Below, one piece after another: positions 5,758-39,063 of a stretch of 64,000 nucleotides of DNA (its first letter is position 1; each line of letters opens with the position of its first letter). The notes under the pieces are model-generated. The model did not search any database. It saw only the letters and a list, made by a program, of their open reading frames with translations, and had not been told where the DNA came from. The DNA is from Paracoccaceae bacterium (lineage in GTDB: Bacteria; Pseudomonadota; Alphaproteobacteria; Rhodobacterales; Rhodobacteraceae). The position numbers and the translations under genes are program-made. The DNA lies in assembly GCA_027013095.1 (NCBI GenBank), contig JALUYI010000042.1, positions 62,001-126,000 of the forward strand, written 5' to 3'.

Positions 5758-6119
5758 CGCGGATGATCCATGGCGCTAAGCGCCGGAGACGCGGCCGTCA
5801 TCCAGCCCTCAAAGCGGGGCTTGATCTCGCGAACATCACGAATGATGAGATAGGCATATGCGTCGCTCGACGGGTTGTCGACGGGATAGCGACAGGCCCG
5901 CATGGTGATGACCAGACGGCGAAAGGTCTTGGTCTGACCGTTCTTTATTTCGATGTCTTTCAGTTCCCCGGTCAGCATGTCAAGCGCGCGCACAACGCCG
6001 CCATCGGCCTCGGCCACGGCCACGCGCTGATCGCCGGCCGCGGCCCGCCCAACCGGCAGCGCCAGCAGTAGCGCCAACAGCACCGTCACGGGGCCAAACC
6101 CACGCCGCCAACCTGTCAT
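5697..6119 (-). CDS. DUF2155 family secreted protein
   Basis: A 140-aa protein with an N-terminal signal peptide or anchor (VTVLLALLLALPVGRAAAG) and a compact domain. That domain has the DUF2155 pattern: LDMLTGELKDIEI, CRYP.DNP.SDAYAYL.I, F.GWM.A.SPALSAMDHPRYDVWVLRC. The function is unknown; family members sit beside mlaD and NDUFA12 in alphaproteobacteria, as here. The start ATG overlaps the mlaD stop as ATGA, so it is translationally coupled. The 3' end runs 61 bp into aat on the other strand. Confidence 0.85.
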   Translation of the reverse strand: MTGWRRGFGPVTVLLALLLALPVGRAAAGDQRVAVAEADGGVVRALDMLTGELKDIEIKNGQTKTFRRLVITMRACRYPVDNPSSDAYAYLIIRDVREIKPRFEGWMTAASPALSAMDHPRYDVWVLRCNIPPGKTSSGG

Positions 6120-6562
6120 TTCGAGCCGCCCGCGGCGAATTTCATCAGCAGGGTGACGACACTGACCGCCCCTTGCGTCTCGGTGACCTCATCGCCGTTC
6201 TTCAGATTGCCCGGCGCGCCACCGGGGACAATTTCGACGAAATTCCCCCCCAGCAGCCCTTCGGACGAGATCAGCGCCTGGGTATCGGTGGCCAGTTCCA
6301 GATCGGCAGGAACCGTAAAGGTGGCGACCGCACGATAGGTTGCCTTGTCCAGAGTCAATCCGGTCACGGTGCCGATCTTTACCCCGGCCATGCGCACGTC
6401 CGTGCCCACGGACACCCCCTCGACCGAGCGGAAACTGGCGTGCAAAACATTGCTGCCAGAAGGCGCGGCGACCCCCGTTGACTGGGCCGCGAACACCAGA
6501 AAACCTATTGCCGCGGCCAGAACGACACCACCGATCAGGGTCTCGGTTGTATTTTCCGCCAT
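6116..6562 (-). CDS. mlaD: MlaD-like MCE-domain protein of the outer-membrane lipid transport system
   Basis: Periplasmic substrate-binding component of the Mla phospholipid transporter. The 148-aa length is typical. One N-terminal membrane anchor (about residues 8-27) is followed by a single MCE domain (LHASFRSVEGVSVGTDVRMAG, then GLLGGNFVEI). The ABC partners MlaE and MlaF are not next to it. It is the second gene of the operon NDUFA12-mlaD-DUF2155 and overlaps the DUF2155 start by 4 bp. Confidence 0.9.
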   Translation of the reverse strand: MAENTTETLIGGVVLAAAIGFLVFAAQSTGVAAPSGSNVLHASFRSVEGVSVGTDVRMAGVKIGTVTGLTLDKATYRAVATFTVPADLELATDTQALISSEGLLGGNFVEIVPGGAPGNLKNGDEVTETQGAVSVVTLLMKFAAGGSK

Positions 6563-6586
6563 CGCGTCTGTTCCTTTGATTCGGCG

Positions 6587-6961
6587 TTATTCCGGCTGCC
6601 ACGCCTCGTAATCCGTGCGCTCCACCGGATGCTGGCGCAGGATCGAACCCGCCGGCACATAGGCGGCGCGGGTTCCGGTCAGATTCACGTGATGAGGTTT
6701 TTCCCACGGCTTGTGGGGCAGCGGCGCCGATGTTGGCGGGCTGTCGAATGTATGGTGCAACCAGCCGTGCCAGTCTGGGGTCACACGGGTGGCCTCGGGC
6801 TCACCGTTGTAAATGACCCAACGGCGCGTGTCGGATTTGTCGTGATAGAACCGGTTGCCTTCGGCGTCCTCACCGACATAAATCCCGTTGCGCCAAGTGA
6901 ACAACTGGGTGCCAATGGTTTCCCGGCCCCACCACGTCAGCATTCTCAGCAGAAATTTCAT
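6587..6961 (-). CDS. NADH:ubiquinone oxidoreductase accessory subunit, NDUFA12 family
   Basis: A 124-aa homologue of mitochondrial complex I subunit NDUFA12 (B17.2). Recognisable blocks are [46 protein letters not shown]-type (here [14 protein letters not shown]), [14 protein letters not shown] and the Pro-rich tail with YEAWQP. It occurs in alphaproteobacteria with a mitochondrial-type complex I. It is the first gene of the three-gene minus-strand operon, 24 bp upstream of mlaD. Confidence 0.92.
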
Positions 6962-7152
6962 CGCGAACCCCTAGAATTCATGGCTTCGATATGACGCGGA
7001 TGCGCGCAGAAGTCCAGCGGAAATACCGATGGGCCGGAGCCAGATCGCCGGAAACCGCGGGCCATTGCGTTGGGCCCGACCACGGCCCCGGCTTGCCTGC
7101 GGGGCACCGGATCGCTAGAGCAGGGAGAGGTCTTTCAACTGGCGGCGCAAAA

Positions 7153-8136
7153 ATGCAGATCGAAACCGTTTCAGGCTATCAGTTTCACCCGGACGATCTG
7201 GCGATTGGCGAGCGCAAGAGCGGGATCAGCGCCTTCCTGCGCACCCGAAACGGTGCGGATTTCCTTGCCGCAACGATCCGCAGCCACATGCCGTTTTATG
7301 ACGAGATCGTCGCAGTCTATAACCAGTGCGAAGACGACACCCCCGCCATCCTTGCCGGTCTGGCACAAGAGTTCACACCCAGATTACGCGTCTTTCACTA
7401 TACCGACCGGGTGCAGCCCCTCGGCAGTGCAGCCCATGCCCGCACGCCGGGAAATTCGCCCCAGAGCATGGTTAACTACTCGAATTTCGCACTGAGCCGC
7501 ACGCGCCACAGGATCGTTGTCAAGCTGGATGATGATCATCTGGCCATCCCCGAACGCGTTGCCCCGCTCTGCCACACGCTCCGTAACGAGGGCTTGGGCG
7601 CGGGCCTGTTCCGGTGTTTCTCGGGTCTTAATCTGGCGCGCGCGACCTCGGGAGAGCTTGGAATCCCCGCTCACGAGATGCTCTCGGGCGGCGGCGACAT
7701 CGGCTATTTCGAGGTCGCTCCTGACACGTTCTTTTATCACGACCGCCGATTTGAACGATTCGCCCGCGGGCGCTTGCGCCGGGTCTTCGCCGGCTTTCTC
7801 TATTGGCACCTGAAATTCCTGAAAACCGGCGGCGGCTTTGTCAATTATGAGCTGGGGGCCAACCCCGACAGCCGCTTTGCCCGCAAGCGGAATGCCTTTG
7901 TCCGGACGCGGCTCCTTGAGTTGCCCGAGGCGCGGCGGGCGTTGCGCCCGAATGCTCTGGCTGCCATCGGGGCACGGCTGGGGGCGGGCAAGGCGCGGCT
8001 GAATTACGCCCGCAACCAAGCGCTTGGCGCCGCCTTTCCAGACCCCACGCTGGTGGCCGCGCTGGATCGGCTCAGCCCCGGCTGGCGCGATATTCCCGGC
8101 CTGTTGCACCCGCTTGCCCGACAGGACAGCGGCTGA
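7153..8136 (+). CDS. Glycosyltransferase family 2-like protein
   Basis: A 327-aa protein resembling GT-A fold glycosyltransferases. It has an N-terminal FLRTRNGADFLAATIRSH block, ~ residue 50 YDEIVAVYNQCEDDT, and a metal-binding acidic cluster KLDDDHL at 126-128. The acceptor and donor are unknown. A membrane segment is not obvious. An in-frame open region extends upstream to 6991, but the conserved part begins near the ATG at 7153. It is divergent from the NDUFA12 gene and upstream of tig with a 141-bp gap, so it is probably a separate unit. Confidence 0.75.
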   Translation: MQIETVSGYQFHPDDLAIGERKSGISAFLRTRNGADFLAATIRSHMPFYDEIVAVYNQCEDDTPAILAGLAQEFTPRLRVFHYTDRVQPLGSAAHARTPGNSPQSMVNYSNFALSRTRHRIVVKLDDDHLAIPERVAPLCHTLRNEGLGAGLFRCFSGLNLARATSGELGIPAHEMLSGGGDIGYFEVAPDTFFYHDRRFERFARGRLRRVFAGFLYWHLKFLKTGGGFVNYELGANPDSRFARKRNAFVRTRLLELPEARRALRPNALAAIGARLGAGKARLNYARNQALGAAFPDPTLVAALDRLSPGWRDIPGLLHPLARQDSG

Positions 8137-31680: not shown

Positions 31681-31733
31681 GGCGTGGATTGCGCCAAATT
31701 TCCAGCCTGCCGAGGCGCAATCAATTCCACGCC
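31681..31733 (-). terminator. Long imperfect hairpin at the end of the sigma-54 regulator gene
   Basis: Arms GGCGTGGA-TTGCGCC (31681-31695) and GGCGCAA-(TCAAT)-TCCACGCC (31714-31733) can form a 15-bp stem with a 5-nt bulge. The stem includes the stop codon of the response regulator gene. No T run follows, so it may be a weak terminator or a barrier ahead of cdd. Confidence 0.4.
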
Positions 31734-33109
31734 TCACGTTTGCGATAAATGGTTGAGGGCGAGACATCCAGCACCCGCGCCGCGCGGGTGACCGAGCCCC
31801 CCTCGCGCGCGATGGTTTCCTCGATCACAAAACGCTCGATCTCGGCCAGCGGGCGGCCAATCATCCCGGCGACCGGATCGTCTCCGGGCAGGGTAAGCGT
31901 CGGCACCGGTTGTTGCGGCAGGGCGGTTGCGTTTTCTTCGCTCAGGTGCAGAATCTCCAGCGGCAGCATCGTTGTCGTCACGATCCGCCCCTCGTTCAGC
32001 ACCACGACATTGCGCAGAACATTCAGCAGCTGCCGGACATTTCCCGGCCAGGGCAGGCGCCGGAACAGCGCGCGCACATCGGGGTCCAGAGCCTCGATAT
32101 TGCGGCCTTCTTCGCGGGCGAAAACCGCCAGCATGTGATCCGCGATTTCCAGCACGTCATCGCCCCGCTCGCGCAGGGGCGGCAGGTGGATCGGGACGAC
32201 GTGCAGCCGATAGAACAGGTCCTCACGAAAGCGGCCGGCCTTGACCTCTTCGTAAGGGTCGCGATTGGTGGCGCAAATGATCCGCACATTCACTTTGCGC
32301 GCCACCTCGGCGCCGACCGGCTTGATCGTCGATGTTTGCAGGAACCGCAGCAGCTTGGTCTGCAGGTTCATGTCCATCTCGCAGATTTCATCCAGAAACA
32401 ATGTGCCACCATCCGCCGCACCCGCCGCACCCACTTTGTCTGCAATGGCCCCGGTGAACGACCCCTTGAGGTGGCCAAAAACCTCGGATTCCAGCAAATC
32501 CGGCGGGATCGCACCACAGTTCAGCGGCACGAACGGCCCCTTGGCCCGGGTCGAGGTGTCGTGGATTGCCTGCGCACAGACCTCTTTGCCGGTGCCGCTC
32601 TCGCCGGAAATGAACACGGTCGCCATCGAGCCCCGGATCGAGCGGATCTTTTCATAAATCTCGCACATCTTGTCGCAAGAGCCGATAAACCCCTGAAACC
32701 GCGCGCCGCCACTATCCGCAAAGGGCTCGACCACCGGCAGCAGGCCCGATTGCATCCGGGCATTTTCAACCGTCGCAATCAGGCGCGCCTCATCAAACGG
32801 TTTGACCAGAAAATCAAAGGCCCCCCCGCGCATTGCCTCGACCGCCCAGTTGATCGAAGCGTTGGCTGTGATTACGATCACCCGCGAATCCGGCGCGATC
32901 CGCAGCATGTCCGCCATCAGATCCAGCCCCGGCCGGTCCGGCAGCATCAGATCCAGCAGCACAACCTTTGGCCCATGCGCCTGAAACATCGCCAATCCGT
33001 CAGCCGCGGTTCCCGCGCTGAGGACCGAGAACCCTGCCTTGGCGAGGACGGCCTCATAGACCATCTGCAGGGACAGCGTGTCCTCGATCAATAAAACCGG
33101 CTCGGTCAT
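31721..33109 (-). CDS. Sigma-54-dependent response regulator (NtrC/LuxO-like)
   Basis: Transcription activator of the NtrC class, output of the adjacent phosphorelay. The 462-aa protein has an intact receiver (acidic pair IED, phospho-acceptor Asp53 in VVLLDLMLP, Thr81, Lys103 in LVKP) and an AAA+ domain with Walker A GESGTGKE (169-176) and Walker B GTLFLDE. The sigma-54 contact loop reads GSFTGA rather than the usual GAFTGA. A C-terminal Fis-type HTH follows (GGSVTRAARVLDVSPSTIYRKR). The ATG at 33109 starts at the receiver; a longer frame to 33250 would overlap the upstream hybrid kinase. Target promoters are unknown. Confidence 0.92.
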   Translation of the reverse strand: MTEPVLLIEDTLSLQMVYEAVLAKAGFSVLSAGTAADGLAMFQAHGPKVVLLDLMLPDRPGLDLMADMLRIAPDSRVIVITANASINWAVEAMRGGAFDFLVKPFDEARLIATVENARMQSGLLPVVEPFADSGGARFQGFIGSCDKMCEIYEKIRSIRGSMATVFISGESGTGKEVCAQAIHDTSTRAKGPFVPLNCGAIPPDLLESEVFGHLKGSFTGAIADKVGAAGAADGGTLFLDEICEMDMNLQTKLLRFLQTSTIKPVGAEVARKVNVRIICATNRDPYEEVKAGRFREDLFYRLHVVPIHLPPLRERGDDVLEIADHMLAVFAREEGRNIEALDPDVRALFRRLPWPGNVRQLLNVLRNVVVLNEGRIVTTTMLPLEILHLSEENATALPQQPVPTLTLPGDDPVAGMIGRPLAEIERFVIEETIAREGGSVTRAARVLDVSPSTIYRKREAWN

Positions 33110-33128: not shown

Positions 33129-34679
33129 TCACGGCGACGGATGTTCCTTCGCTTGTTCGCCCAGTATAAACGCCTGCAGGTCCGATAGGCCAGACAGGCA
33201 CTTGGCACAGAGCGCTTCGATGGTTGCCTGATCGCGGGAATGGGCAGCACTGTTCAACTCTTGCGCAAGCCGCTGCAGGTCGGTGGCGCCAATCGCCCCG
33301 GCAATGGAGATCAGGATATGGGTCTGGGCCCGGATCTCAGCCAGATCCAGTGTCTTTTGCCCGCGGGCCAGCCCCTCGGCCACCGAATCAGAGTCAGATT
33401 GCAGCTTGCCCAGCAATTCGGCCGTCGAATCAGGCCCGATGGTTTCGATCAGGGCATCAAATATACTGCGATCAACTATACTGCGATCAACAATTTCACC
33501 GGCCGCGACAGCCTGCGCCTCGGCCTGCGCCGTGTCGCCATTTCGGCCGCTCAGGCCGGTTGATGACGGCGACTGAGTGCCCCCATCCGGCTTCAGAAAT
33601 GACAGGACGTCCCGTCCCAGATCCTGCAGATCCATGATCGGCTTTGCAATGATGCCATTGGCCCCGGCAGCCAGAATCCGCTCGCGATGTTCGCGCATGA
33701 CATAGGCGGTCAGGGCGACCAGAGGCATTTCTGCAACCGGACCGGTCTTTCTCCGAATCGCGCGCATCAGTTCGATCCCGCTCATTCGCGGCATTTCGAT
33801 ATCCAGAAGCGCGATGTCAAACCGCTGATGCTCGAGCATTTCCAAGGCCTCCAGCCCGTCTGAGGCAACGGCATAATCCGCGCCCAGCGCCTGCAGCATC
33901 TGCGTCGCCACCAGTTGGTTGGTCTTGTTGTCCTCGGCCAGCAGGACACTGACACCCGCCAGGCGGACCGGAGCATCGTGCGCGCTGGTTGCGGTGACGC
34001 CATCCCGGCGTAAACTGCGCTCGAACCAGCGCGCCTTTGGCAAGGTCAGAACCGCCTCTGCGCCGCCCTCGTTCCGATTGGAAATGGTCAGTTTTGCCGC
34101 CATCGCCCCGGACAATTTCTTGGCGATAAACAGGCCCAGACCGCTGCCGGGTTTTCGGGCATCCTTGGGGCGCCCTTCGTATTCGAACAATCGCGACAGC
34201 GCATCGTCAGACAGCCCGGGGCCGGTGTCCGCAACGACAAATGTCAGGGCAAGATCGGCGTCGCAATCCACCGCCAGCACAACCTCGCCACGGTCGGTGT
34301 ATTTGATCGCGTTTTCGATCAGGTTTGCGAGGATCCGCTCCAGAGTCACCCGGTCCAGGGTCGCAATCGCCGGCAGGTCTCTGGGCATATCAACGCGAAA
34401 GACGATGTTCTTTTGCGCCGCATGCGCCCCCCAACGCTTTTTCAGATCGGTCAGGAAATCCGCCAGATTGATATTGACCGGACGGGCATTCGCAGGGCCA
34501 ATGTCAAGCAGATCATCGGTGCGGCCCTTGTCAAGAAGGCGCGCAACGGTGCCGGCCGCCGCCTCGATCCGGTCGATCTGCAACTGGATTTCGGGGGCAA
34601 GCTCACTGCCCCTGAGCAGGCTGATCCCGCCCAGAATATCGGTCAGGGCCGAGCGCAAATCATGCGAGAGCAGGGACAA
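33129..34679 (-). CDS. Soluble hybrid histidine kinase with receiver and HPt domains
   Basis: A cytoplasmic phosphorelay protein without membrane segments. From the TTG at 34679 the order is HisKA (H-box SHDLRSALTDI, His6), HATPase with intact N-box LERILANLIENAIKYT, DTGPG and GSGLGLFIAKKL, receiver (Asp293 in LLDIEMPRMSG, Lys346), an Ala/Ser linker with a duplicated IVDRS, and an HPt-like end with candidate His454 in AQTHILISIAGAIGATDL. All catalytic residues are present, unlike the membrane kinase upstream. The frame is open above the TTG: a Shine-Dalgarno AAGGAGGA points at an ACG at 34742, which would add 21 residues (SELPENPAIEGD...). The true start is therefore uncertain. The regulator gene follows after 19 bp. 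Confidence 0.88.
   Translation of the reverse strand: MSLLSHDLRSALTDILGGISLLRGSELAPEIQLQIDRIEAAAGTVARLLDKGRTDDLLDIGPANARPVNINLADFLTDLKKRWGAHAAQKNIVFRVDMPRDLPAIATLDRVTLERILANLIENAIKYTDRGEVVLAVDCDADLALTFVVADTGPGLSDDALSRLFEYEGRPKDARKPGSGLGLFIAKKLSGAMAAKLTISNRNEGGAEAVLTLPKARWFERSLRRDGVTATSAHDAPVRLAGVSVLLAEDNKTNQLVATQMLQALGADYAVASDGLEALEMLEHQRFDIALLDIEMPRMSGIELMRAIRRKTGPVAEMPLVALTAYVMREHRERILAAGANGIIAKPIMDLQDLGRDVLSFLKPDGGTQSPSSTGLSGRNGDTAQAEAQAVAAGEIVDRSIVDRSIFDALIETIGPDSTAELLGKLQSDSDSVAEGLARGQKTLDLAEIRAQTHILISIAGAIGATDLQRLAQELNSAAHSRDQATIEALCAKCLSGLSDLQAFILGEQAKEHPSP
33462..33491. repeat. 15-bp tandem duplication inside the hybrid kinase gene
   Basis: TATACTGCGATCAAC occurs twice head-to-tail (33462-33476 and 33477-33491). 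It keeps frame and encodes IVDRS twice in the linker before the HPt domain, so it is a length-variable linker rather than a damaging mutation. Confidence 0.9.
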
Positions 34680-34748
34680 TCCGGTCTTGTCTCGCGCCGG
34701 GTGATCGCCCTCAATCGCTGGGTTTTCTGGAAGTTCTGACGTGACCCA

Positions 34749-34817: not shown

Positions 34818-36527
34818 TCAGGGCGTTTCATTTGAGGCAGCGTAGGCTGCGGGGTGGTGTTCGGCAACCGCCCGTGGCGCGCGGCTCGCCAATTGCATGA
34901 ACCGCGCCTTGCGGATGCGGGACACATCGATGGGAACCTCGATCATATCGTCAAACAAATCCGGATATTGCGCGCGCCCCACGGCCACAATGATCGCCTC
35001 GGGGTAAAGCCGGGACAGCGAGCGCGCCAGAACCGCCTCCTGCGCACCTCCCGCCTCGATCATCACGACATGGGGGATCAGGCGCGTATCGGGCGCAACG
35101 AACTTGACATTTTCGGCCCGCAAAGCCGCCTTGCAAATCGCCTCGAGGGCCGCCGAGCGACAGGCAATGCGGATCAGCAGCACATCGACCGCCAACGCCC
35201 GGACCGGGACCGATACCAGAACCGAGATCCTCTCGTCTGACGGGGTGTTCAGCCGGACCTGCCCGCCCATGCGTTCGATCAAGCCGCGTGAGACCGCCGG
35301 GCCAAGGGCCTCTGAGGCCAGAGAATTCTCGGTCTCCTCAGCCCCCCCCATGATCAGTGAGGGCTGCCACTCTCGCCCGTCTTTTTTGTATTCAAACGAG
35401 ATTTCAGCGTTCAGCTTGCCTGCACTGCACGAAATATCCAGTGTGATATTTTCGGTGCCGGCGGTCTCCAGAATATAGGTTGCCAGATGGGTCAGGGCCT
35501 GCCGCAGTCGGGCAAAATCTCCCAGGACCTGCGGTGGGCAGGACGGATCGACATGGGTCGAAAAGGCGATACCTTCGCGCAATGCAACAGGCGAGAACAT
35601 ATCGCCCACTGCTTCGGCCAGACGCTCGGGCTCAAACGGTTTGTTTTCTAGGTGCAACCGCCCCTCCTGCAGAGCGGCAAAATCCAGAATGTCCCCGAGC
35701 AAGCCGATCATCTGATGCCCCGAGCGCTCGGCCTGCTCCAACAGGCGGGCCTGATGCCCGCTCAGACCCTGCTGCCGAATAAGCGCGAGAAGCCCCAGAA
35801 CCCCGTTCATGGGCGTGCGTAATTCATGGCTCATCATTGCCAGAAATTGCGACTTGGCCCGGCTGGCTTGATCCGAGGCGCGCAACAATTTCTCGTTCGC
35901 CCGCGCCAATATGCGGAATTGCTGCGAATCGCGGGCAAACACGATGATCATCAAGAGGCTGCTCAGAACAGCGATCACGCTGATGATGGTTAACAAGTTC
36001 GAGCTTTGTGCCAGATTTTCACGCAAAACCGCATGGTTGCTTTCCTCGCCATGCAGGACCGTCTGGCTGAGATGGCGCAACTTTTTGGTAAACGGAGAAA
36101 ATTCACGGTAGAGCGCCCGCGCTTTGGCCTGATCCCCCGGTTTCAGGTTGACGACCTGATCTTCGACCTTCTGGATCTTGGCAAACAACGCCGACAGAAT
36201 CGTGCCGTCGGTGTCATAGGCACGCAGCCGCGCCCCCACGGTGCCCTGTCGAAACAGCGAAACCCTGCTCCACAGCAGATCATATCTGTCATTGACCGAA
36301 GCGGGCGAGGCCGTTCCCCGTCCATTGGCAAAGGCCGCCAGTTCACGCTGAAAGCGCATAAGCTCGATCTGGATCTGCAAGGCGTCCCACAGAATATTCT
36401 CGCGTCCAGCATCGCGCATCTGGTCAATATCGTTGCGCACAACAAAAAAACCGACGCCCGCGACCGAGATCGTCAGGGCAACGATCACGGCGCCGACGAT
36501 CCGCGTGACGATGGGAACCTTTTTCAC
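34818..36527 (-). CDS. Membrane histidine kinase with degenerate ATPase domain
   Basis: A 569-aa sensor. TM1 covers about residues 8-30, an extracytoplasmic helical domain 31-175, TM2 178-198. HisKA carries an intact H-box MMSHELRTPMNG with His234. The following HATPase-like region lacks the normal residues: the N-box reads LRQALTHLATYILETAG, without either Asn, and there is no DxGxG or GxGLGL block. The last ~120 residues look like a receiver remnant (PHVVMIEAGG) without a phospho-acceptor Asp. I infer a pseudokinase or phosphatase-type sensor that works through the competent hybrid kinase downstream. Its ATG overlaps the stop of the secreted-protein gene by 4 bp. Confidence 0.85.
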   Translation of the reverse strand: MKKVPIVTRIVGAVIVALTISVAGVGFFVVRNDIDQMRDAGRENILWDALQIQIELMRFQRELAAFANGRGTASPASVNDRYDLLWSRVSLFRQGTVGARLRAYDTDGTILSALFAKIQKVEDQVVNLKPGDQAKARALYREFSPFTKKLRHLSQTVLHGEESNHAVLRENLAQSSNLLTIISVIAVLSSLLMIIVFARDSQQFRILARANEKLLRASDQASRAKSQFLAMMSHELRTPMNGVLGLLALIRQQGLSGHQARLLEQAERSGHQMIGLLGDILDFAALQEGRLHLENKPFEPERLAEAVGDMFSPVALREGIAFSTHVDPSCPPQVLGDFARLRQALTHLATYILETAGTENITLDISCSAGKLNAEISFEYKKDGREWQPSLIMGGAEETENSLASEALGPAVSRGLIERMGGQVRLNTPSDERISVLVSVPVRALAVDVLLIRIACRSAALEAICKAALRAENVKFVAPDTRLIPHVVMIEAGGAQEAVLARSLSRLYPEAIIVAVGRAQYPDLFDDMIEVPIDVSRIRKARFMQLASRAPRAVAEHHPAAYAASNETP

Positions 36528-37000
36528 TTGTATTCCATCTTGACCAGTTGCCAGATCAGGCGACTGTTATAAACGGAGTCGCGCAATTCGGCATGCTGGC
36601 TCATCGGATAAATCATCCAGATTGGCCCCTTTCCGCGTTTTGACAGTGCCTTTCCATCCATGCTGAGTGCCAGTATGGCGTCGTATTTTCTGAGTTCGGA
36701 TACCGCAATCGAGACCTGATAGTCATTGGCTGCCGTCAGCGTAACGGTTTTTGCATCCTTACCGCCCGAGCGGTCCAGAACCAGCCGGGCCAGCGGTCCG
36801 CGAAAATCCCGGGTTCCGTCAACAAACTCATTGGCGGTCCGAACATCCGTCTGCGGCAAGGCACGCAAATCGGACAGGGTGAACCGCTTTTGTATCTTTC
36901 CCTCGGCATCCTGAACCGTCAGAGCGGTTTGGGCGACGGTGACACTGCCGAAAAAGACGGCGAACAAAAATACAAGAAAACCAGGGATTTGCTTGCTCAT
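36524..37000 (-). CDS. Small secreted protein with sulfite-oxidase (molybdopterin-binding)-like fold
   Basis: A 158-aa protein with a signal peptide (FLVFLFAVFFGSVTVAQ, about residues 8-24) and a domain resembling PF00174 oxidoreductase molybdopterin-binding proteins: FTLSDLRALPQ, FRGPLARLVL, VTLTAANDYQVSIAVSELRKYDAILALSMDGKAL, GKGPIWMIYPM. The whole protein contains no cysteine, so the Cys ligand of molybdenum in sulfite oxidase/YedY is missing and a catalytic molybdoenzyme is unlikely. As the first gene of the phosphorelay operon, overlapping the membrane kinase by 4 bp, it is probably the periplasmic ligand-sensing partner. The ATG at 37000 follows GAGGATGCA. Confidence 0.78.
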   Translation of the reverse strand: MSKQIPGFLVFLFAVFFGSVTVAQTALTVQDAEGKIQKRFTLSDLRALPQTDVRTANEFVDGTRDFRGPLARLVLDRSGGKDAKTVTLTAANDYQVSIAVSELRKYDAILALSMDGKALSKRGKGPIWMIYPMSQHAELRDSVYNSRLIWQLVKMEYK

Positions 37001-37116
37001 TGCATCCTCACATTTTTCATGTGACGTAACGTTAGCCGCGTCTTTACCATAAACGCAATGGCAAAATAGCACCAATTTGATGCTTTAACCTGTTGTTAAG
37101 ATATCGTTAATTTGTG

Positions 37117-37160: not shown

Positions 37161-39050
<1,890 letters not shown>

Positions 39051-39063
39051 CACTTCGCTCCTT

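Follow-up and report, generated by a model that had tools for sequence, protein, structure and literature searches.

Within the window (the whole stretch analysed, 64,000 nucleotides of a contig from a marine Paracoccaceae bacterium), four genes that we refer to as M, A, B and C follow one another on the reverse strand, downstream of a gene for an acyl/acetyl-CoA synthetase (Table 1). The second of them, A, is the subject of this work; its start codon is GTG and overlaps the stop codon of M (GTGA). The same arrangement, with acyl-CoA synthetase, M, A, B and C in that order, is the usual one in relatives. M adjoins A in 42 of the 44 loci with enough upstream sequence, B adjoins A in all 43 loci with enough downstream sequence, and C is found near A in 32 of 37 loci, five having no C nearby. 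Two loci (L040 and L067) carry A but no M.

Table 1 Features of the M–A–B–C locus, in positions of the window and in the order of the genes.
Feature	Position	Strand	Basis
Acyl/acetyl-CoA synthetase, frequent upstream neighbour of the operon	37161..39053	-	Pfam; positions in relatives
M: PruR-like periplasmic pterin-binding protein (SUOX fold), predicted	36524..37075	-	Pfam Oxidored_molyb; PDB sequence matches
A: membrane sensor pseudokinase (TM, periplasmic domain, DHp, pseudo-CA, pseudo-receiver), 569 aa	34818..36527	-	ORF; HisKA match; AF2 pLDDT 83.3
A, WX7E motif (Trp47...Glu55) of DcpA/DTB periplasmic domains	36363..36389	-	Alignment; motif as described in PMC13259868
A, DHp (HisKA) domain, residues 215-290	35658..35885	-	Pfam HisKA 224-289; best-conserved domain of A
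A, HELRTP box, His234-Pro239, phosphoacceptor and HExxT phosphatase motif	35811..35828	-	Alignment of 45 sequences
A, pseudo-CA, residues 296-441, HATPase fold without N, G1 and G2 boxes	35205..35642	-	Alignment, AF2, dN/dS
A, pseudo-receiver, residues 447-548, Glu491 replacing the phospho-Asp	34884..35189	-	AF2; REC fold matches; alignment
B: soluble hybrid kinase HisKA-HATPase-REC-Hpt, start uncertain	33129..34745	-	Pfam; motifs intact
C: LuxO/NtrC-type sigma-54 response regulator	31721..33109	-	Pfam REC, Sigma54_activat, Fis HTH; NCBIfam LuxO

The original prediction described A as a histidine kinase with His234 in a perfect SHELRTP box, replaced N-box Asn residues, no DxGxG or GxGxG box and a receiver-like tail without its Asp, and this description holds throughout. 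The box is present in the A open reading frame, where residues 224-289 match Pfam HisKA (2.6e-17) and the HisKA core is TorS-like, TorS being the best NCBIfam model. The N, G1 and G2 boxes expected of an active HisKA histidine kinase are missing: residues 345-357, which align with the N-box, read LTHLATYILETAG, with Tyr351 in place of the second Asn of intact relatives, and in an alignment to intact sensor kinases DxGxG and GxGxG are absent, the G1 Asp is gone and a relict 'SEALGPAV' aligns with GxGLGLxI at the place of G2, GxGLGL having become EALGPA. With hmmscan, HATPase_c scores 22.7 bits, below its cut-off of 26.4, and in a search of the whole genome it is borderline and only just passes (26.3 bits, or 26.5 with neighbours). 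The genome holds 21 HisKA matches, of which the other 20 carry HATPase_c at 54 bits or more compared to 26.3 for A, and A is thus an outlier among the HisKA proteins of its genome. From the loss of the boxes we infer that A does not use ATP in the normal way, and self-phosphorylation does not appear plausible for a protein of this sequence.

An AF2 model of the whole protein, based on 22 sequences (mean pLDDT 83.3, pTM 0.54), has a HATPase-like fold at residues 296-441, followed by another alpha/beta domain that spans about 447-548. Predicted alone, the latter reaches a pLDDT of 90.8, and its top REC fold match is 2qxy (Z 12.4, rmsd 2.3, 101 aligned), with an archaeal CheY, Spo0F and DivK close behind. 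Glu491 stands at the acceptor position; across 45 orthologous rows this column holds Glu in 37, Asp in 3, Gln in 2, Ala and Ser in 1 each and a gap in 1, and there is no Lys in any of the 45 in the column before the conserved Pro, the place assigned to the receiver Lys. The tail is a pseudo-receiver.

Orthologues of A were collected in two ways. A is present in all 10 genomes of the genus, that of the window included, and at least 17 of the 394 genomes of the family give a match at 1e-40, with the best 3 candidates per genome scored; among these 17 matches are an intact DTB-like kinase (L068, genome G392) and a divergent sequence (L066, genome G116). The periplasmic domain was also used to scan named genomes, which yielded 42 loci, including ones from Oceanicella sp., Oceanomicrobium pacificus, Thermohalobaculum xanthum and Limibaculum sediminis; 35 of the 42 are titled Rhodobacterales or belong to genera that we take to be placed there, 6 are titled 'Alphaproteobacteria bacterium' and 1 is from Stappia. 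Fragments shorter than 300 aa (L085 and L104 among them) and loci duplicated between the two collections were removed before alignment. The alignment has 49 rows, of which 45 were counted after dropping L068, L109 (Sulfitobacter) and L110 (Stappia) as intact, more distant DTB-like sensors and L066 as divergent; L066 keeps the box, has lost the ATPase boxes, and has no pseudo-receiver and no adjoining B. The 45 rows include the A of the window and two broken copies, L039 (an N-terminal piece) and L058 (a C-terminal piece). L039 (genome G004) carries a frameshift, L058 (G195) is broken by a stop, and the copies in G295 and G090 are flagged with one stop each.

Alignment of orthologues had been proposed as the check on a functional pseudokinase, and its outcome is the one expected of such a protein. 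His is found in 45/45 rows, followed at H+1 by Glu in 44 and Asp in 1, at H+4 by Thr in 44 and Asn in 1 and at H+5 by Pro in all, so that the HE/DxxT/N pattern is kept in 45/45, compared to 0/45 both for the N-box Asn and for a G2 box in its place. The Asn column is occupied by Tyr in 39, His in 4 and Phe in 2, the second Gly of G2 is Ala in 39 and Gly only in the frame-shifted row of L039, and Pro410 is present in 44. Five rows contain DxGxG or GxGxG strings by chance. In L040, L087 and L108 these are remote from the positions of the boxes, in L039 they fall within the frame-shifted tail, and in L056, which has neither an N nor a G2 box, DYGHG is found six columns away from where G1 begins in intact relatives. 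Orthologues with normal boxes, which would have marked this copy as a decayed allele, were not found among these sequences. In a midpoint-rooted FastTree of A, B and other kinases, which left out L039 and included L066, A forms one clade of 45 (local support 0.93) and the intact L068, L109 and L110 fall outside it. Since A forms one clade, its sequences are consistent with a single loss of the ATP boxes.

Mean pairwise identity among 44 A sequences is 0.59 in the DHp domain, 0.39 in the pseudo-CA and 0.30 in the pseudo-receiver. For nine hand-chosen close pairs that share members, dN/dS of the pseudo-CA is 0.05-0.21, which indicates purifying selection on this domain, although five of the pairs have dS above 1. 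In the pseudo-receiver it is 0.11-0.70 over the 8 computable pairs, values that are imprecise as several pairs have dS above 1, and its constraint appears looser than that of the pseudo-CA.

Upstream of A, M is most similar in the PDB to the pterin-binding proteins 7kos, 7kom, 7kp2 and 7rkb (E 7.5e-18 to 3e-15). The account of PruR in PMC13259868 ties an Asn, a Tyr and a Trp to pterin binding, and the counterparts of these residues in M, assigned by alignment, are present in 42, 42 and 43 of 44 rows, respectively. The same source describes WX7E as a mark of the periplasmic domain both in DcpA and in DTB sensor kinases linked to PruR, the latter of which can have the full set of domains or part of it. 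In A, the Trp of this motif is found in 43 and the Glu in 44 of 45 rows, one row having a gap at both, and the genome of the window encodes one such WX7E-type periplasmic domain. PruR-linked DTB sensors, as described in PMC13259868, share with A a PruR-like gene directly upstream, the WX7E motif, a HisKA core and a receiver tail. The DTB protein described from Ruegeria pomeroyi combines a PAS domain with an ATPase domain and a REC that keeps its Asp (PMC13259868), whereas A lacks the ATP boxes and the Asp; there is no PAS match in A with Pfam. What A retains of a DTB-type kinase core is the HisKA match and the HATPase fold, with the catalytic boxes absent. Because A carries the WX7E motif of PruR-linked DTB sensors, the best reading is that it is such a sensor turned into a conserved pseudokinase, an assignment made by motif. 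In the two loci with no M, B is also reduced to REC-Hpt, and L067 has in addition lost the Trp of WX7E; the pattern in L067 and L040 suggests that these loci may have lost a pterin input.

Downstream of A, B has REC and HATPase_c matches above the Pfam cut-offs and HisKA and Hpt matches below theirs. The phosphoacceptor His of its HisKA is present in 39/39 A-linked sequences with that domain, and the G1 Asp, the REC Asp and the Hpt His are kept in every A-linked row with a letter there; in G2, substitutions affect the first Gly in 4 A-linked rows and the second in 1. B consists of REC-Hpt only in 4 of 43 loci (L040, L063, L105 and L067, with Thermohalobaculum and Limibaculum among them). There its frame opens directly before REC, at most about 90 bases from the end of A or overlapping it, which leaves no room for a kinase between the two, and the box of A is intact in all four. 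B in the window (34679-34745) has no standard start codon at the place where V or L precedes a TPEKP-like stretch in aligned relatives; AAGGAGG leads there into GTC and then ACG. The first standard in-frame start is a TTG at 34679, five codons before the His, and would shorten the protein.

The next gene, C, has LuxO as its best NCBIfam model (3.2e-159), with 530.6 bits, below the equivalog cut-off of 800. In Vibrio, LuxO receives its input from a hybrid kinase and a phosphotransfer protein. The operon resembles that circuit in pairing a LuxO-like regulator with hybrid-kinase and phosphotransfer input, and differs from it in the sub-threshold score of C and in its sensors. Sigma-54 is encoded in the genome of the window, and a scan of the window for sigma-54 promoters gave 3 sites compared to 2.27 expected, no signal.

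The best structural matches of A are GacS (Z 20.2) and RetS (19.6 and 19.4), with DivL at 18.1, level with active kinases. The sensor of RetS differs from that of A. In other respects RetS of Pseudomonas aeruginosa is closely comparable, being described in PMC5992135 as a membrane sensor with a degenerate HATPase that has no G-boxes, a retained HExxT and a receiver tail. By the same account it dephosphorylates the receiver of GacS, an activity lost with T428A, drains phosphate onto the Asp of its own REC2 and inhibits GacS autophosphorylation (PMC5992135). Its partner GacS carries REC and Hpt as a hybrid kinase (PMC5992135), and so does B beside A. RetS has D858 as the REC Asp of this phosphate sink; A has Glu491 there. 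As A has no receiver Asp, a drain of the RetS type would be unavailable to it, and phosphatase activity and inhibition would remain available. Unlike RetS and GacS, A and its presumed partner B are encoded in one operon, B is soluble and output would be through a LuxO-like sigma-54 regulator. By analogy, the best reading is that A, with its receiver Asp missing, is not a member of the RetS family and only works like RetS.

The original prediction proposed trans-phosphorylation or a phosphatase or adaptor function, and with an H-box kept in 45/45 and no N or G2 box this remains the right set of options. It can be narrowed, because a PruR-like gene lies upstream, A carries WX7E, a complete hybrid kinase and a sigma-54 regulator lie downstream, and RetS provides a precedent. 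A most likely controls the working kinase of the next gene instead of acting as a kinase. More specifically, and with only slightly more confidence than doubt, we favour A as a RetS-like regulator that reports the PruR/pterin state and acts through its HExxT motif on the receiver of B, on the kinase of B or on both. Following the precedent of PruR and DcpA, M, probably with a reduced pterin, would engage the periplasmic WX7E domain of A, and the signal would pass through the intact DHp helices. The HELRTP box would then dephosphorylate the REC of B, and, in the manner of RetS with GacS, the DHp and pseudo-CA may in addition bind to B and change how it autophosphorylates. B itself would run a relay from His to Asp (REC) to His (Hpt) and on to C, the sigma-54 activator, and thereby to the presumed targets of C. 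Action on the receiver is favoured over simple pairing with the kinase core of B, as the REC always stays with A, even where the kinase of B has been lost, and since a HExxT phosphatase needs a receiver, the constant receiver of B fits a phosphatase. Against this reading stand the two loci with A and no M and the five with no C nearby. HExxT is, further, not specific to phosphatases, as ordinary HisKA kinases also carry it: among 19 loci of background kinases tried, H+4 is Thr in 13/13 where the pattern was found. A phosphatase, moreover, does not need strict conservation of His234, which would be expected just as much if this residue were a phosphoacceptor.

That last role is the one proposed by the first alternative, which we consider possible but rather unlikely: the ATPase of B, or another kinase, would phosphorylate His234 in trans, and A would hand the phosphoryl group to the receiver of B under the control of pterin. 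His234 is invariant (45/45) in an intact H-box and a complete ATPase domain is encoded next door, but B has no ATPase in four loci where the box of A is unchanged, so the donor there would be another kinase. Further, the kinase regions of A and B fall into two distinct clades, and outside its own clade A is nearest in tree distance to kinases other than B, so that ready formation of an A–B heterodimer is not specially expected. Trans-phosphorylation of A by a distant kinase would be compatible with the kinase-less B loci. We would only tentatively describe the system as a pterin-gated split phosphorelay, with sensing and the phosphoacceptor or phosphatase helix in one protein and ATP chemistry in another. 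A similarly guarded proposal concerns the four loci with truncated B and no ATPase in M–A–B–C, where the His of A might be served by, or police, a receiver charged by a kinase elsewhere.

A second alternative, less likely again, does without phosphoryl chemistry. A would be an allosteric sensor like DivL of Caulobacter that switches B, or a phosphorylated regulator, by conformation, with its box conserved for binding and its Glu pseudo-receiver as a fixed mimic of the phosphorylated state. Glu does occupy the acceptor column in 37/45, and A is similar in fold to DivL (4q20, Z 18.1), but this score is within 1 of several active kinases and thus not specific to DivL. DivL has itself lost the phosphoacceptor His of the H-box, whereas A keeps it in 45/45, and pure binding would not obviously need Glu or Asp at 235 and Thr or Asn at 238 in all 45. 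DivL provides an alphaproteobacterial pseudokinase precedent as described in PMC4211667, and its regulation of the hybrid kinase CckA is described in PMC9430884.

It is very improbable that A is an unusual kinase that still binds a nucleotide or another ligand in a remodelled pocket: it retains the HATPase fold, and new conserved residues stand in the old boxes (FASDALGP, ETAG), but the residues by which Mg-ATP is held, namely the Asn, the Asp and most of the Gly, have been replaced. That A is a decayed gene or a sequencing artefact is hardly credible, for all the frameshifted, stop-broken and flagged copies in G004, G195, G295 and G090, given the uniform loss of boxes in 45 distinct sequences, the low dN/dS, the conserved operon position and the conservation of the replacement residues (Tyr351 in 39 and Pro410 in 44 of 45).

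Taken separately, the sensor type and the strategy of using a pseudokinase are each already known. We did not find the combination of a PruR-linked DTB sensor with a pseudokinase, nor a path from PruR to a sigma-54 regulator, in the literature searched; the passages of PMC13259868 on DTB sensors make no mention of dead kinases among them, and the word 'degenerate' is absent from its main text. The M–A–B–C operon is a candidate for such a path and looks like an independent case of a pseudokinase. Here, A is inherited in one operon with its presumed kinase, a receiver, a phosphotransfer domain and a regulator, and its sensor type has a known candidate ligand class, the reduced pterins. Such a system would allow direct study of the way in which a periplasmic signal reaches a live kinase through a dead one.

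The downstream genes also occur apart from A. C is found in at least 93 of the 394 family genomes at 1e-120 (best 4 candidates per genome), compared to at least 17 for A at 1e-40. We collected the neighbourhoods of C from 60 of the 93 matching genomes, namely 58 with no match to A together with G392 and G116, and neither M nor A was found in the stretch around C in these 60 loci. The gene before C is a full hybrid kinase in 28, degenerate in 1 (L154) and REC-Hpt, Hpt or no detectable B in 31, among which at least L143 ends at the end of its contig. In a midpoint-rooted tree of B, the A-linked sequences group together except for the truncated L058. Since B and C occur in relatives that have no M or A, and since the A-linked B sequences group together, B–C looks like the core relay and M–A like an input that was joined to it or lost from it on few occasions.

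Two further relationships between A and B were considered. B as a duplicate of A has no support, with A (45) and B (67) in separate clades of the midpoint-rooted FastTree. A division of labour, in which B would have lost the Thr or Asn at H+4 only where A is present, was likewise not supported: T/N is found at this position in 3/39 B sequences with A and in 7/28 without, the 7 all being Asn and in one clade (Fisher p 0.08, a value that ignores relatedness). As H+4 of B is mostly not T/N with or without A, there is no clear sign that the presence of A led B to abandon phosphatase activity.

Rhodobacteraceae that have no M and A beside C keep C, preceded by anything from a full hybrid kinase to REC-Hpt, to Hpt, to nothing detectable; examples of this varied gene between acyl-CoA synthetase and C are seen in L152, L153, L158-L161, L163, L165 and L169, among others. 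In L154 (positions 6066-7613), the B homologue has Arg in place of the phosphoacceptor His and eroded ATP boxes and keeps the Hpt His, a putative second route to a dead kinase at this locus.
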